From contig CANQEB010000061.1 in NCBI GenBank assembly GCA_947594085.1, forward strand, positions 1 through 11,159: 11,159 bases of DNA, read 5' to 3'. Positions within the stretch are counted from its first letter, which is position 1; every line of letters starts with the position of its first letter. The notes beneath the pieces were generated by a model that saw only the letters and a program-made list of their open reading frames with translations, searched no databases and was not told the DNA's origin. The translations under genes and the position numbers were made by a program. Positions 5,308-11,159 of this stretch are shown piece by piece. Source of the DNA: an uncultured Lachnospiraceae bacterium (GTDB lineage: Bacteria > Bacillota > Clostridia > Lachnospirales > Lachnospiraceae).

Positions 5308-6477
5308 TCAGAAATCACGTATCACTTCCAAAGCCGGAAGGGCATTCCCGTCATAGTCAAACAGCGCCTGGTTTGCCCATTCATTTCCTCCCGGTCCACG
5401 TTCTTTGATGTATGCGCAAGCCGCATCCGTCGCCCAACCGCTCCCCGGCACTGGAATCCAGGCCGGCTCCCAATAGAAAAAGCCTCTGCCTTGTCCATTT
5501 GGGACCTCACGGATGATCTGCAGGACGTCCCGCATAAAATCAGATTGTCCTTTTGGAGTCATCGGATAGTCAATCGCATCCGCCAGCTCCCGCCGGGTTG
5601 CCATCCCTTTCCGCTCGTGCGGCGCAAGCTGCTCGTAGGCACCATAATCTTTCATTGTATAACCCATCGAGACTTCCGTCACAATCAAGTCCTTCCGGTA
5701 GCGCACGGCAATGTCATTCATATTGGCTTTCAGCATCGCGGGCGTCCCGTGCCAGAACGGATAATACGACAGCCCGATGTAATCAAAATCCGCGCCGCCA
5801 TTTGCAAAATAGGAGTCAAACCAGCCGCGGTACAGCTCATTATTCCCGCCGTTATCCAGATGGATCATCACAGAGATTTCAGACTGGCCGCACACCGTCT
5901 GAGCGCCTGCCTGTGCATCTGTCGAGTGGTTCTCGCGCACTTCTGCCTCCATCTCGCGCACAGCGCGGATGCCCGCGCTCACGAATCGCGCGATGTTCGC
6001 AAAGTTCGGTGTCCTTCCATACGGCCACAAAAGGCCATTGGAAAGCTCGTTCCCGACCGCCACCATCTGCGGCAGAATGTCTTCTTTTTTGCAGCGCGCA
6101 AGCACCTCTTTTGTGTAATCGTAGACCGCCGTCTCCAGTTGCCCGGCGTCCAGACCGCGCCACGCCTTTGGTACGGTCTGCTTGCCCGGGTCTGCCCAGA
6201 AATCACTGTAGTGGAAGTCGAGCAGCCAGCCGACGCCTTTCTTCTTCGTGCGCTTTGCAAGCGCCAGCGTCGTCTCGATGTCGTTGCCGCCCGCGCCATA
6301 GGAGTTGCCCGCTTCGTCAAAGGGATCGTTCCAAAGGCGCAGGCGCACCATGTTCATCCCATAGTTCTTCAGGATGTCCATGGCGTCCCCGCGCACACCG
6401 TGATCATAGAATTTCCCTCCGCAGCGCTCGACCTCCAGCAGGGTCGACAGATCCATGCCCTTGATGAAATTCCCCAT
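5308..6477 (-). CDS. GH53 endo-beta-1,4-galactanase, cytosolic
   Basis: Glycoside hydrolase family 53 enzyme (arabinogalactan endo-beta-1,4-galactosidase, EC 3.2.1.89), which cuts beta-1,4-galactan chains such as type I arabinogalactan side chains of pectin. Length is about 389 residues, a single (beta/alpha)8 barrel without extra modules. Key stretches: FIKGMDLSTL (4-13), VRLRLWNDP (44-52), LLDFHYSDFWADPGKQ (85-100), VAVGNELSNG (139-148) with E144 as acid/base, IGLSYYPFWHG (234-244), and LIVTEVSMGYT (264-274) with E268 as nucleophile. ATG at 6477 is preceded by TGGAGGAACACAAA, a good ribosome binding site; the frame stays open upstream but that part overlaps the zinc-ribbon gene. No signal peptide or anchor is present, unlike secreted galactanases, so it should act on imported oligosaccharides. 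It is the last gene of a three-gene cluster, 35 bases after the zinc-ribbon gene. It would correspond to ganB of other Firmicutes, but its location in the cell differs. Confidence 0.93.
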   Translation of the reverse strand: MGNFIKGMDLSTLLEVERCGGKFYDHGVRGDAMDILKNYGMNMVRLRLWNDPFDEAGNSYGAGGNDIETTLALAKRTKKKGVGWLLDFHYSDFWADPGKQTVPKAWRGLDAGQLETAVYDYTKEVLARCKKEDILPQMVAVGNELSNGLLWPYGRTPNFANIARFVSAGIRAVREMEAEVRENHSTDAQAGAQTVCGQSEISVMIHLDNGGNNELYRGWFDSYFANGGADFDYIGLSYYPFWHGTPAMLKANMNDIAVRYRKDLIVTEVSMGYTMKDYGAYEQLAPHERKGMATRRELADAIDYPMTPKGQSDFMRDVLQIIREVPNGQGRGFFYWEPAWIPVPGSGWATDAACAYIKERGPGGNEWANQALFDYDGNALPALEVIRDF

Positions 6478-6512: not shown

Positions 6513-6743
6513 TCAGTCGTCGAATTTCTCGAAGTCCTCCATCGCAAAGCGCCGCATCATATCGCCGTAGCGGAAACGCGCCATCTGGTTCTTCGCAAGT
6601 ACATCCTCCTCGCTCCCGCGGTACTGGCAACGGATACAGTAATATTCCTTCTTCTCCTTATCGTAAAACATATCGAGGTCCAGATCGCGCATGAAGCAGG
6701 ACGGACAGCGATAATTTAATTTCCCTTTTCCAGATTGAGCCAT
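6513..6743 (-). CDS. Small zinc-ribbon protein, translationally coupled
   Basis: A 76-residue cytosolic protein with two CxxC knuckles, CPSC (C13, C16) and CIRC (C36, C39), separated by 19 residues; this spacing fits a four-cysteine zinc ribbon. Between the knuckles lies an acidic/aromatic stretch (LDLDMFYDKEKKEYY), and the tail is charged (ARFRYGDMMRRF, EDFEKFDD). The ATG at 6743 overlaps the end of the upstream gene by 28 bases, and a strong AAGGAGG lies about 10 bases upstream inside that gene, so translation is probably coupled to it. The GH53 gene follows 35 bases later. Zinc ribbons of this size may bind nucleic acid or act as protein partners; nothing visible separates these. I do not recognise a named family. 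Being sandwiched between two carbohydrate genes, it may regulate or assist them, but that is only inference. Confidence 0.82.
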   Translation of the reverse strand: MAQSGKGKLNYRCPSCFMRDLDLDMFYDKEKKEYYCIRCQYRGSEEDVLAKNQMARFRYGDMMRRFAMEDFEKFDD

Positions 6744-8641
6744 GTCGCAAAGACCTCCTTCTCGCAGAGTTTCCCGGTATAGCCGAGCGTGAACATCGGG
6801 CTGAACGCATAGCCCTCCTTGAAATAGCCTTCCTTCTCCCTGCCCTCGCAGGTCATGGTGACGCGCGTGTCGATCGGCGGGAGCAGGCAGCTGACCGCGT
6901 CAGCGTCCTTCAGCGACGCTTCCCTGCATTTGTACTCATAGGGAAGCTCCGTCTTCTGCGTGCCCTTCACAGCCGAGAGCACGAGGCTCGACATATCCTC
7001 GGTGTACTCGGTCGTCCCATAGCAGCCGACCATGTACTCATTGATCGTCACGTCTGCAGACGGATCGCTCATCTCCAGCACCTTCCGCTCAATCTTAATC
7101 GAACTGCTGCCCTCCGTGAACGTAATCACGGTCTGCAGCTTTACGGTCAAATCAGAGAATTCAATGTCCACCGGATCCAGCGTCAGAACACGTTCGACGA
7201 TTTCATATCCTGCGCCGTTTCCACCGCTGACGTCCGATACGCGCTCCGTGTGAACCGCTCCCTGCGTCCTGTCGTCCGCCGGTCTTCTGTTCTCAGAGAA
7301 ATGTGCCTTCGTGCGGCAGAGGCAAAGGTCAACCTCCTCGCCGCCGTGACAGATTTTCGCGCTGCGCACCGTCCCCTCGCCCGCGTAGTGTGTGAAATAA
7401 CCCGCGCGGTACTTCTCCTGGATCAGAAACGGATAACTCGCGTCCTGGATATGCGGCGTGCCGATGCCCACCGGCCACTCAAGCTTCGCCACATATGGGC
7501 GCAGGTCAACGATCGCTCCACCCTGGTCCATGTTCACGCCGACGCGCATGAATGGATCACAGTACCAGAAGACCTGCTTCTTGCTCCCGTAGAGAATATC
7601 TCTCCACAGCGCGCACTCCGGCTCCGTATAAGACTTCTTCTTCCTGTAGTAATCCGCAAACTCGCTCATCGTCATGTCGATGAGCTTACCTTCCTTCTTG
7701 AGCTTCCCGTAGTAGGCGCAGCCGTCCTCGTAGGACTTCAGCAAAAGCTCATACGGGGACTCCCAGCGCCCCATCTTGTTCATCCAGCCCGGCCCGACAA
7801 ACATCATGTTGTAGGCGTAGCCGTTGTTGAATTTCTCCTGATAGCGATACTGGTCGATCAGGTTGTAGAGATACGGGTATTCCCATGTCTCGGTATCATA
7901 GATCATCCCACGCAGTACATTCTGCGGGTGCGTCCCGAAGTTCGAACCGTTGCCGTCGTAGCAGGCGATCAGGTCGCGACTCAAGTGCGGGATCGCGACG
8001 ATGCCGGAGTCCTCCGCCTCGTTCGCGGCCGGCGCATGTGTGTTCTGCTTCGACGGGATCCACGGCGCCCAGGGGCCGCCGTCCATGAAAGTGTACCAGC
8101 TGTTGTTGCAGGTGTGATAAGCCTTCGGCCCTTCCTCCCAGCAGGTCGCCACCGCGCACTTGACCGAAGGGTAGCGCTCCTTTATGTAGTTGATCAGATC
8201 CGCGTCCATGTAATACGAGCCAGTTGACTCCGGATAGAAGCCGAAGCGCTCGTAGAACTTTCCGAACACGTCCTCCACGATCGCCTTCTTGTCCTCCATC
8301 GAGAACATCCAGATGCAGAAATCCTTCGTCTTATATTTCTCGCGAAACTCCTTGCACGGCAGTCCGAGCAGCGTCAATCCGATCTCATCCCCGTACTTCT
8401 CGTGATGCTCTTTCGCTAAGGCAACCGCCTCGTCGTTGAACAAGCTGGCGTAGGTCATCTCAATTGTCGTCTTCAGCCCGTTCTTGTGCGCGCACTCCTG
8501 CTGTGTCTTGAAAATGTCGAGGCTCTCCGTCAGCAGGGCCTTGCGCCCGATATCCTCCGCCTGCCCGTGTCCGGTCACCTTCTCGGCGTACTCCGGCACC
8601 ATCTCAGGGCGGTGGACAATATTCAGGATAAACTCTCCCAT
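6716..8641 (-). CDS. Large cytosolic protein of unknown function in a sugar locus (DUF3863-like, possible carbohydrate-active enzyme)
   Basis: About 641 residues, no signal peptide or membrane segment. I recall similar proteins being labelled DUF3863/DUF3864, but could not verify it. The first ~350 residues look like a barrel enzyme: EMTYASLFND (61-70), KYGDEIGLTLLGL (82-94), FGFYPESTGSYYMD (133-146), then CAVATCWEE (162-170) and GGPWAPWIPSKQN. The pair DEIGL plus FGxxP-x3-GSYYMD resembles the NodB polysaccharide-deacetylase and GH57-type barrels, where such motifs hold substrate or metal. The C-terminal ~250 residues look beta-rich (VERVLTLDPVDIEFSDL, SSSIKIERKVLEMSD), like a sandwich domain of a glycosidase. 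ATG at 8641 is preceded by AAAGGA about 10 bases upstream; the longer open frame to 8746 runs through the leader. It is the first gene of the cluster with the zinc-ribbon protein and GH53 galactanase, downstream of the ABC permeases, which argues for sugar metabolism. The exact reaction is unknown. Confidence 0.85.
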   Translation of the reverse strand: MGEFILNIVHRPEMVPEYAEKVTGHGQAEDIGRKALLTESLDIFKTQQECAHKNGLKTTIEMTYASLFNDEAVALAKEHHEKYGDEIGLTLLGLPCKEFREKYKTKDFCIWMFSMEDKKAIVEDVFGKFYERFGFYPESTGSYYMDADLINYIKERYPSVKCAVATCWEEGPKAYHTCNNSWYTFMDGGPWAPWIPSKQNTHAPAANEAEDSGIVAIPHLSRDLIACYDGNGSNFGTHPQNVLRGMIYDTETWEYPYLYNLIDQYRYQEKFNNGYAYNMMFVGPGWMNKMGRWESPYELLLKSYEDGCAYYGKLKKEGKLIDMTMSEFADYYRKKKSYTEPECALWRDILYGSKKQVFWYCDPFMRVGVNMDQGGAIVDLRPYVAKLEWPVGIGTPHIQDASYPFLIQEKYRAGYFTHYAGEGTVRSAKICHGGEEVDLCLCRTKAHFSENRRPADDRTQGAVHTERVSDVSGGNGAGYEIVERVLTLDPVDIEFSDLTVKLQTVITFTEGSSSIKIERKVLEMSDPSADVTINEYMVGCYGTTEYTEDMSSLVLSAVKGTQKTELPYEYKCREASLKDADAVSCLLPPIDTRVTMTCEGREKEGYFKEGYAFSPMFTLGYTGKLCEKEVFATWLNLEKGN

Positions 8642-8897: not shown

Positions 8898-9752
8898 TTA
8901 GCCCTTCACAGCGCCTCCGGTCACACCCTCCACATAGAACTTCTGCATGATGAAGAACAGGATCGAGATCGGAATCGACACGAGCACGCCGCCGCAGCAG
9001 AAGATCGTAAAGTAGCTGTTGATCAGGCTCTTGTCGAGCATCTTGTACAGGCCGATCGCGACTGTGTAATTCTCGGAGATACCCGCATTCAGGATCATCT
9101 TCGCGAACACGAAATCCATCCACGGACCGAGAAAACTGCTGATGACCGTGTACACGATAATCGGACGACTCATCGGAATGATGATCGTCGAGAAAATTCT
9201 GGCCTCGCTGCAGCCGTCAAGCCTTGCCGCCTCGCAGAGCGCGCGCGGAATCGTATCAAAGAATCCCTTCGCAATCAGATACCCAAGCCCTGCGGATCCG
9301 GAATAGACCATGATCAGACCCGCGTAGCTGTTCGTCAGATTAAAGGTCTTCAACACGAAATATACCGCGATCATCGAGAGCATGCCCGGGAACAGGTTCA
9401 GGATCACGCCCATGTTCATCAGCGGCTTTCTCATCGGGAAGCGCATCACGGAGGTCGCGTAGGCGACCATCAGCACGAACGCCGTAGAGATCACCGTCGT
9501 GAAACACGCGACTATAAATGTGTTCATGAACCAACGCGGAAACTGCTGCACGGTATCCGGCTGAAACAGCTTCTGATAGTGGATCAGACTCCACTCCTTG
9601 GGGAAGAACGTGCTGGTGTTCATTCCCGAATATGCGCTGAACGATGTGCAGACCAGCCAGATGATCGGGATCAGCCAGACGAACGCCAGAAAAGCGATCA
9701 GCAGATTGTGCAGGATAATGCTTGAGGTTCGATTACTTTTCATCTTTCTCAT
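8898..9752 (-). CDS. Sugar ABC transporter permease, MalG/GanQ type
   Basis: Inner permease subunit of a carbohydrate uptake ABC transporter (CUT1, binding-protein-dependent permease family), 284 residues, six predicted membrane helices. The first helix is at about 13-36 (ILHNLLIAFLAFVWLIPIIWLV). The EAA loop that docks to the ATPase is at 174-193 (EAARLDGCSEARIFSTIIIP). The C-terminus ends QKFYVEGVTGGAVKG, a very common ending of MalG-type subunits. ATG at 9752 overlaps the stop of the upstream permease by one base (TAATG) and has GAGGAGG about 10 bases upstream, so the two are coupled and made in equal amounts. Substrate cannot be read from this subunit; the GH53 gene downstream suggests galactooligosaccharides. 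No ATPase gene is in the window; CUT1 systems often share a common MsmX-type ATPase coded elsewhere. Confidence 0.94.
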   Translation of the reverse strand: MRKMKSNRTSSIILHNLLIAFLAFVWLIPIIWLVCTSFSAYSGMNTSTFFPKEWSLIHYQKLFQPDTVQQFPRWFMNTFIVACFTTVISTAFVLMVAYATSVMRFPMRKPLMNMGVILNLFPGMLSMIAVYFVLKTFNLTNSYAGLIMVYSGSAGLGYLIAKGFFDTIPRALCEAARLDGCSEARIFSTIIIPMSRPIIVYTVISSFLGPWMDFVFAKMILNAGISENYTVAIGLYKMLDKSLINSYFTIFCCGGVLVSIPISILFFIMQKFYVEGVTGGAVKG

Positions 9753-11159
9753 TATTGGTAATCCTCCTCTCTTCCGTTTCCTATCATGCGGTTAAACGCA
9801 AACAGTGTAAACACCGCGCAGATAATGAATACGATAATGCCGATTGCCGAAGCCATCTTGTAATTGTAATAATCCTGCGTCAATCGGAACAGCCAGGTCA
9901 CCAGAAGATCGACCTCCTTGGCCTGCGAATTCGCCATCGCCTGGTTCGTCGTCGTGTAGACACCCTCCGTCAACAGATAAATCACGTTGAAGTTATTGAT
10001 ATTCTTGACGAAGTCCGTCACGAGCGCTGGACCAGTCACAAAGAGCATATACGGCATCGTAATGCTCTTAAAGATCTGGAACGGCTTCGCACCGTCCACC
10101 CTTGCGCTCTCCACCTGATCGGACGGCAGATTCATCAGCACGCCTGTCGCGATCAGCATCTGATACGGGATGCCGATCCAAATATTGATCAGGATGATCA
10201 TCACATGCGCCCAGCCCGGCGCTGACAAAAACGGAATGTAACTCGTCGAGATAAGACCAATGTCCCGCAGGAATCCGGTCAGTCCGATGTTCGCGCAGAT
10301 CGTGTTGACAATGCCTCCGTTCGAGAAGAAGTTTCTCACCAGAAGCAGCGATACGAACTGCGGCACCGCGATCGTGATGATAAACAGCGTACGCCACAAC
10401 CTCGGCAGCCTGGTTTTCTGGCTGTTCAGCAATATAGACAAAAGAATGCCGCCGATGTAAGTCGTAAACGTCGCGAAGAACGCCCACACAAGCGTCCAGC
10501 CCAGTACACGCACAAAGGCGTAGCCGAACGTGATGGTCATCCCGCCCCCGCCGAACAGACTGATGAAGTTGTTGAATCCGTTCCATGAGAACAGATTCGT
10601 CGGCGGCATGTGCTGCTGGTCATAATTCGTAAACGCGACAAGAATCAGCAGCAGAATCGGGACAAACGTGAAGACCGTGATCCCGAGCACCGGAAGCGTC
10701 AGCAGCGTAATGTGAAATTTCTCTTCCACATAAGAATGCAGATCTTCCCGGAAGGTATTGATGTGCTCCCCTGCCTCGGCCTTGAGCTGAAGGCAGTACA
10801 CATTCACCACATTTTTCATCCAGATGATGATACCGGCAGCCCAGACGACAAAGCTGAACAGAGAGAACAGCAGGATCAAAAACGAATTGTCGTAATCGTT
10901 CCATTCGTTTTTCATTGTCTTCATGTTGAACACCTTTTCCGGCTTCACCGTGCCAAGTGATCCGAACTTCGGCACATAGTCGAGCGCGAAAAAGATGGTG
11001 AACAGGATCAGGCCTGCTTCAAGCGCGGTCATGATCGCCGCTTTTACGTACTGCTTCCGGCGGGCATATCCTGCTCCCCACCAGAGCAGAGACAGCTTGA
11101 CAAACGCGTCACCCTTTGCGACCGCGCTGCCGAAGTCCGCCAGAAAGCGGCCGATCGCG
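9752..11159 (-). CDS. Sugar ABC transporter permease, MalF/GanP type (5' end outside window)
   Basis: Partner permease of the same CUT1 importer. The reading frame has no stop up to the window edge: 42 further codons precede the ATG at 11032 and read GDAFVKLSLLWWGAGYARRK, the kind of N-terminus (KLS..xGAGxxxRKQYVK) found before the first helix of MalF/GanP-type subunits. The true start is therefore beyond 11159 and the ATG at 11032 is internal, within the first helix. At least 468 residues are visible, with eight likely helices. The EAA loop reads ESARVDGAKPFQIFKSITMP near the C-terminus, and a charged loop (QLKAEAGEHINTFREDLHSYVEEKFH) separates helices 2 and 3. The stop codon overlaps the next permease start by one base. 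A solute-binding protein gene is expected just upstream, outside the window. Family is firm; substrate is inferred from the neighbouring GH53. Confidence 0.93.
   Translation of the reverse strand, partial: AIGRFLADFGSAVAKGDAFVKLSLLWWGAGYARRKQYVKAAIMTALEAGLILFTIFFALDYVPKFGSLGTVKPEKVFNMKTMKNEWNDYDNSFLILLFSLFSFVVWAAGIIIWMKNVVNVYCLQLKAEAGEHINTFREDLHSYVEEKFHITLLTLPVLGITVFTFVPILLLILVAFTNYDQQHMPPTNLFSWNGFNNFISLFGGGGMTITFGYAFVRVLGWTLVWAFFATFTTYIGGILLSILLNSQKTRLPRLWRTLFIITIAVPQFVSLLLVRNFFSNGGIVNTICANIGLTGFLRDIGLISTSYIPFLSAPGWAHVMIILINIWIGIPYQMLIATGVLMNLPSDQVESARVDGAKPFQIFKSITMPYMLFVTGPALVTDFVKNINNFNVIYLLTEGVYTTTNQAMANSQAKEVDLLVTWLFRLTQDYYNYKMASAIGIIVFIICAVFTLFAFNRMIGNGREEDYQ

Follow-up and report, generated by a model that had tools for sequence, protein, structure and literature searches.

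X and ZnR, an overlapping gene pair in a galactanase locus of an uncultured Lachnospiraceae bacterium, as candidate subunits of a carbohydrate-active enzyme

The subject of this study is an uncharacterised protein of 641 residues, here called X, and the small protein ZnR, whose gene overlaps that of X; both are encoded in an 11,159-nucleotide stretch of DNA (the window) from an uncultured Lachnospiraceae bacterium (contig CANQEB010000061.1). The nearest structural relative of X is BDI_3119 (PDB 3LM3), described as a 'putative glycoside hydrolase/deacetylase', whose fold is shared by the X model at a sequence identity of 17%. We take 3LM3 to be the structure of DUF3863; in the open-access literature (supplements aside) no paper was found on the function of DUF3863/3LM3, BDI_3119 or DUF3864, and none describing an X-ZnR pair. 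The NodB-type polysaccharide deacetylases and the PuuE allantoinase show 10–13% identity to X, which differs from them by lacking the HxxxH metal motif and by carrying a large C-terminal sandwich. For the GH57 enzymes (amylopullulanase and the 4-alpha-glucanotransferase 1K1X) the identity is about 10%, and 1K1X aligns to the X model with a root-mean-square deviation (rmsd) of 18, which points to a different arrangement of the domains. The GH38 chains 7UFT and 7UFS appear in the list of fold matches at an rmsd of 21 only; absence of a family from this list does not exclude that family. The galactose mutarotase-like sandwiches (3MWX and others) are 6% identical to X, and since this type of sandwich is also found in many glycosidases, lyases, and YidC, it reveals no function for X. 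The GH173 beta-galactosidases are described as having an (alpha/beta)8 barrel of clan GH-A (PMC8810776), unlike that of the X model. At the level of loci, the figure legends of a study of Roseburia GH53 loci mark 'hypothetical genes' (PMC5320581), and another study reports a Butyrivibrio GH53 gene induced on pectin (PMC6344614).

The open reading frame of X occupies positions 6716..8641 of the minus strand, with the ATG at 8641 and the stop at 6716-6718, and on the plus strand the same interval is interrupted by stops. The sequence-only reading of this DNA had the coordinates of X exactly right and overlooked the ZnR gene that overlaps it. ZnR (6743-6513, minus strand) is a zinc-ribbon-like protein of 76 residues with four cysteines (C13, C16, C36, C39) and predicted zinc binding. 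Its ATG lies inside the 3' end of X, the two frames overlapping by 28 nucleotides including the X stop (6716..6743, minus strand), and is preceded by a Shine-Dalgarno-like AAGGAGG within X (6754..6760, minus strand). ZnR fills most of the gap between X and the GH53 gene, which starts 35 nucleotides past the ZnR stop. We give about an even chance to the reading that X and ZnR together make up a cytosolic carbohydrate-active enzyme (CAZyme), each being one of its two subunits. X would supply a NodB/GH57-type barrel and a mutarotase-like sandwich, and ZnR would be a small zinc-ribbon subunit that binds zinc, forms a physical complex with X, and is made in step with it by translational coupling, through the overlapping start and the Shine-Dalgarno sequence inside X. 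No signal peptide was seen by eye in X, which is therefore probably cytosolic.

The pairing of the two genes was followed in 80 loci holding the closest relatives of X, which are not a census; ZnR was detected in 77 of them, and the other three retain just 52, 88, and 161 bases past X. A wider search covered 125 loci, of which four with C-type relatives (see below) were dropped for having no X at E<=1e-30, and recovered ZnR next to X in 118 of the 121 that were left. Of the three loci where it was missed, L061 stops at a contig end, L074 has a run of N within ZnR, the start of which can still be seen, and in L092 ZnR lies about 210 nucleotides downstream of the X frame. Two CxxC pairs are present in all 118 sequences found, a pattern that the search itself required, and in 12 of the 12 aligned. 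The start codon is ATG in 118/118 loci, preceded by AAGGAGG in 99 and by a shorter match in the other 19. In the loci of X orthologs (A type) the overlap is exactly 28 nucleotides in 110 of 111 cases, the exception (L084) having a gap of 148 nucleotides and an X match split across two frames. ZnR also stands behind all five A-type copies from other families (L129, L137-L140) and behind all seven B-type homologues of X in other loci (three of them from one genus), with overlaps of 31, 31, 31, 34, 34, 34, and 19 nucleotides, while no ZnR-like pattern was seen around the four C-type genes inspected (L112-L115). In a draw of 200 genomes, which by their labels would be the first part of a larger draw of 397, ZnR was found at E<=1e-3 in 27, the same 27 that have a strong X (Fisher p 5e-34), and ZnR without X occurs in none of the other 173. 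Besides its single full ZnR, the window's own genome contains a weak 39-residue stretch with three stops.

X is a real gene because of its matches to other proteins, at least 2418 at E<=1e-3 among 7997 scored candidates, and the mean column identity of 81% in an alignment of 26 orthologs; the relatives among the 120 matches listed are 79–94% identical. A match to X is present in 57 of the 397 genomes of the window's family. With three weak ones set aside (G400, G436, G448), the remaining 54 comprise 53 with orthologs, some split over contigs, and one with a B-type homologue (G427); X and GH53 each occur once in the window's own genome. Among 398 genomes drawn from across the phylum only the window's own X gene was found, and a plasmid collection gave no match (tblastn, E 1e-5). 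The identity to X is 33–41% for the B type and 16–20% for the C type (alignment A1). One weak remote match (L116) was dropped as a false positive, judged by eye from its start and neighbours. Two observations concern single C-type loci: the gene of L115 adjoins a GH127-like gene, and that of L113 bears a CHB_HEX_C_1 domain.

The predicted fold of X agrees with the earlier suggestion of a NodB/GH57-type barrel followed by a beta-rich C-terminal domain. According to the model and its fold matches, the barrel half comprises residues 1-340 (7622..8641, minus strand) and is NodB/GH57-like, and the sandwich half comprises residues 341-641 (6719..7621, minus strand) and is galactose-mutarotase-like. 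The suggested kinship to DUF3863 holds in part: it is supported by the 3LM3 fold and by weak profile matches of distant relatives, whereas X itself does not reach the gathering score of DUF3863 (PF12979) and matches no Pfam or NCBIfam family at E<=1, GH57 and GH38 included. PF12979 is precomputed in 0/120, 7/120, and 24/120 relatives of three listings, and scans of relatives matched 3 of 28 (best E 0.0043). Searched by itself against the PDB sequences, X retrieved just two matches, with E values of 0.72-0.73. Residues 455-483 (7193-7279, minus strand) form a 29-residue low-confidence insertion, absent from most relatives; 4 of the first 30 aligned members have 29, 29, 30, and 31 residues there and the rest have one. 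In the case of ZnR no known family fits, as all Pfam and NCBIfam matches are below threshold (best NCBIfam E 0.012, far under the cut-off). Its model is modest, with a predicted local distance difference test (pLDDT) score of 75.0 from 12 sequences, and neither the Foldseek matches (E at least 0.74) nor the best profile match (E 0.08) are significant. ZnR resembles the zinc-ribbon proteins (TFIIB-type, YheV, ECs_2282) in its two CxxC pairs, all of these matches being weak.

Within the barrel half, the motifs pointed out by the sequence-only reading are in place, DEIGL at residues 85-89 and FGFYPESTGSYYMD at residues 133-146. Eight other residues, C167, E169, E170, H176, C178, H219, R222, and D223, are identical in 84/84 A- and B-type members, and the active site of the pair would lie around them. 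Two of these, H176 and C178, belong to the loop AYHTCNNSW (residues 174-182; 8096..8122, minus strand), and it is precisely at this loop that the pLDDT of the X model falls below 50. Such low confidence would be expected of a loop in need of a partner, a ligand, or a metal; other explanations are possible. In the 28 C-type members H176 is gapped and C178, H219, and R222 are substituted without exception, and E170 is retained in one, while C167 is kept in all. Since the loop residues are missing in the C type and the C-type loci checked for ZnR (four) are without it, the HxCNNSW loop goes with ZnR. This segment is also absent from 3LM3, according to a single profile alignment.

The surroundings of X suggest a possible substrate. 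On the minus strand of the window the gene order is a MalF-like permease (9752-11158, cut by the window end), a MalG-like permease (8898-9752), X, ZnR, a GH53 endo-beta-1,4-galactanase (5308..6477; PF07745, E 9.5e-115), and a TraX-like protein. Both permeases match BPD_transp_1 and are of the CUT1 type, and they and the GH53 gene are the neighbours that had been named earlier; in the GH53 of the window no signal peptide was seen by eye. Among the 80 loci, GH53 occurs anywhere in the locus in 75, and it follows X on the same strand within 1.2 kb in 67 of the 77 that have more than 1 kb of room. The other genes, called by tblastn at E<=1e-15, are a MalG-like permease (56), a MalF-like permease (52), a binding protein (49), LacI (37), TraX (33), GH42 (22), GH13 (11), GH2 (8), and galT (6), and with a broader permease query set a permease ends just upstream of X in 48 of the 69 loci with room. 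A GH13-like protein was also noticed immediately upstream of X in several loci (L006, L007, L012, L013, L016, L068, and others). At this locus the pair would work beside an intracellular GH53 on galactose-rich oligosaccharides brought in by the CUT1 transporter. As a guess, the pair may cleave or rearrange a glycosidic unit, by a mechanism that does not use the metal of NodB enzymes.

The tie to galactan loci that had been suggested for X is strong in respect to GH53, which is matched in 45 of 53 genomes with an A-type X versus 48 of 344 others (Fisher p 3.9e-25, kinship ignored), and is limited by the eight genomes of the 53 without GH53 and by the B types, which lie in other loci. In seven of these eight X sits directly behind a MalG-like permease; four of the seven loci have GH42 or GH2 genes close by, and in one of the seven Pfam identifies a melibiase-like protein, with two more looking alike by eye. 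The eighth (L147) retains an X remnant of 253 residues (7616-8374 of that locus, minus strand) and is probably decaying. A-type copies from other families have GH53 nearby in 4 of 5 cases (L137 and L138 by Pfam, L139 and L140 by eye), and on the 3.4-kb contig of the fifth (L129) none was seen. The seven B-type loci that were read differ in gene content: GH29 with CUT1-type permeases in L111, uronate genes (by eye) and a melibiase-like protein in L133, LplB/YtcP-like permeases (by eye) in L134-L136 (one genus) and L141, and an acyl-ligase/TIM-barrel protein in L132.

Several observations weigh against a two-subunit enzyme of galactan use. A permease is missing just upstream of X in 21 of the 69 loci with room, and the X model does not prove a single pocket shared by the invariant residues. 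Over 59 loci the mirror-tree correlation is 0.48 for X-ZnR versus 0.82 for X-GH53, the value for the short ZnR being noisy, and the mean distance is 0.17 for X versus 0.39 for both GH53 and the permease (0.24 for ZnR). A plain analogy to GH57 or GH38 would not explain this locus either, since those enzymes act on alpha linkages and galactan is beta-linked, and it was set aside, also because E138 (in FGFYPE, a GH57-like Pro-Glu) is Glu in 23 of 26 A members and other residues in B and C; the register of E138 with the GH57 nucleophile comes from a sequence motif and not from superposed coordinates. The slow evolution of X would suit an alternative that we consider unlikely, in which X is a pseudo-enzyme that binds sugar and, once it has bound an imported oligosaccharide, makes its effector ZnR control how the locus is transcribed or translated. 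The presence of the pair in loci of varied content and the weak matches of ZnR to transcription-factor ribbons (TFIIB and TFIIE, none significant) fit it as well, whereas many loci already have LacI or AraC-type regulators, and the many invariant polar residues retained in X are what one would expect of an enzyme. The lack of a special X-ZnR signal in the mirror-tree would instead agree with X being an enzyme alone and ZnR an independent co-transcribed small protein, such as a chaperone or an RNA-binding protein, and bacterial operons often contain small genes that overlap their neighbours; we find this rather improbable, as the pairing is kept in all seven divergent B-type homologues elsewhere, with overlaps of 19-34 nucleotides, and ZnR without X was found in none of the 173 genomes. 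That X is a NodB-type (CE4-like) metal-dependent deacetylase stripping acetyl groups from imported oligosaccharides, as also proposed from the sequence, is very improbable, since HxxxH is absent from residues 1-345 and the two positions where the motif's His are expected (alignment columns 85-94, 90 members) are T/W/S and mostly L.

Returning to the two-subunit enzyme, a further-reaching form of it is possible and tentative. The pair may be an obligate enzyme of a new CAZyme family, in which the barrel would have lost the NodB metal site, the Cys/Glu/His cluster (C167, E169, E170, H176, C178) would be completed or loaded with zinc by ZnR, and variants of the pair would serve different plant-glycan loci across Clostridia.

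The spacer between X and the permease is 256 bp long and contains a single terminator-like site (8799-8782, minus strand) and no promoter-like site on the minus strand. Neither kind of site is commoner than in shuffled sequences, and the earlier placement of X as first in its transcript is thus not established. The TraX-like membrane protein (PF05857; 4393-5175, minus strand) lies downstream of GH53. Farther on, at 108-902 of the minus strand, a seemingly membrane-anchored protein with long Pro/Thr repeats and a C-terminal SH3_3 domain is encoded.

If the pair acts as proposed, it would reveal a step of galactan use in gut Clostridia that is strongly conserved and unexplained, in loci that otherwise seem complete, with a transporter, GH53, and in many cases GH42 or GH2. 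The design itself would be unusual, as it ties a small zinc-ribbon subunit to a barrel of glycosidase-like fold. Genome annotation would be enriched by a small gene that overlaps and adjoins X, and as 3LM3, the nearest structural relative, has no assigned function, a reaction found for X would inform the whole group.
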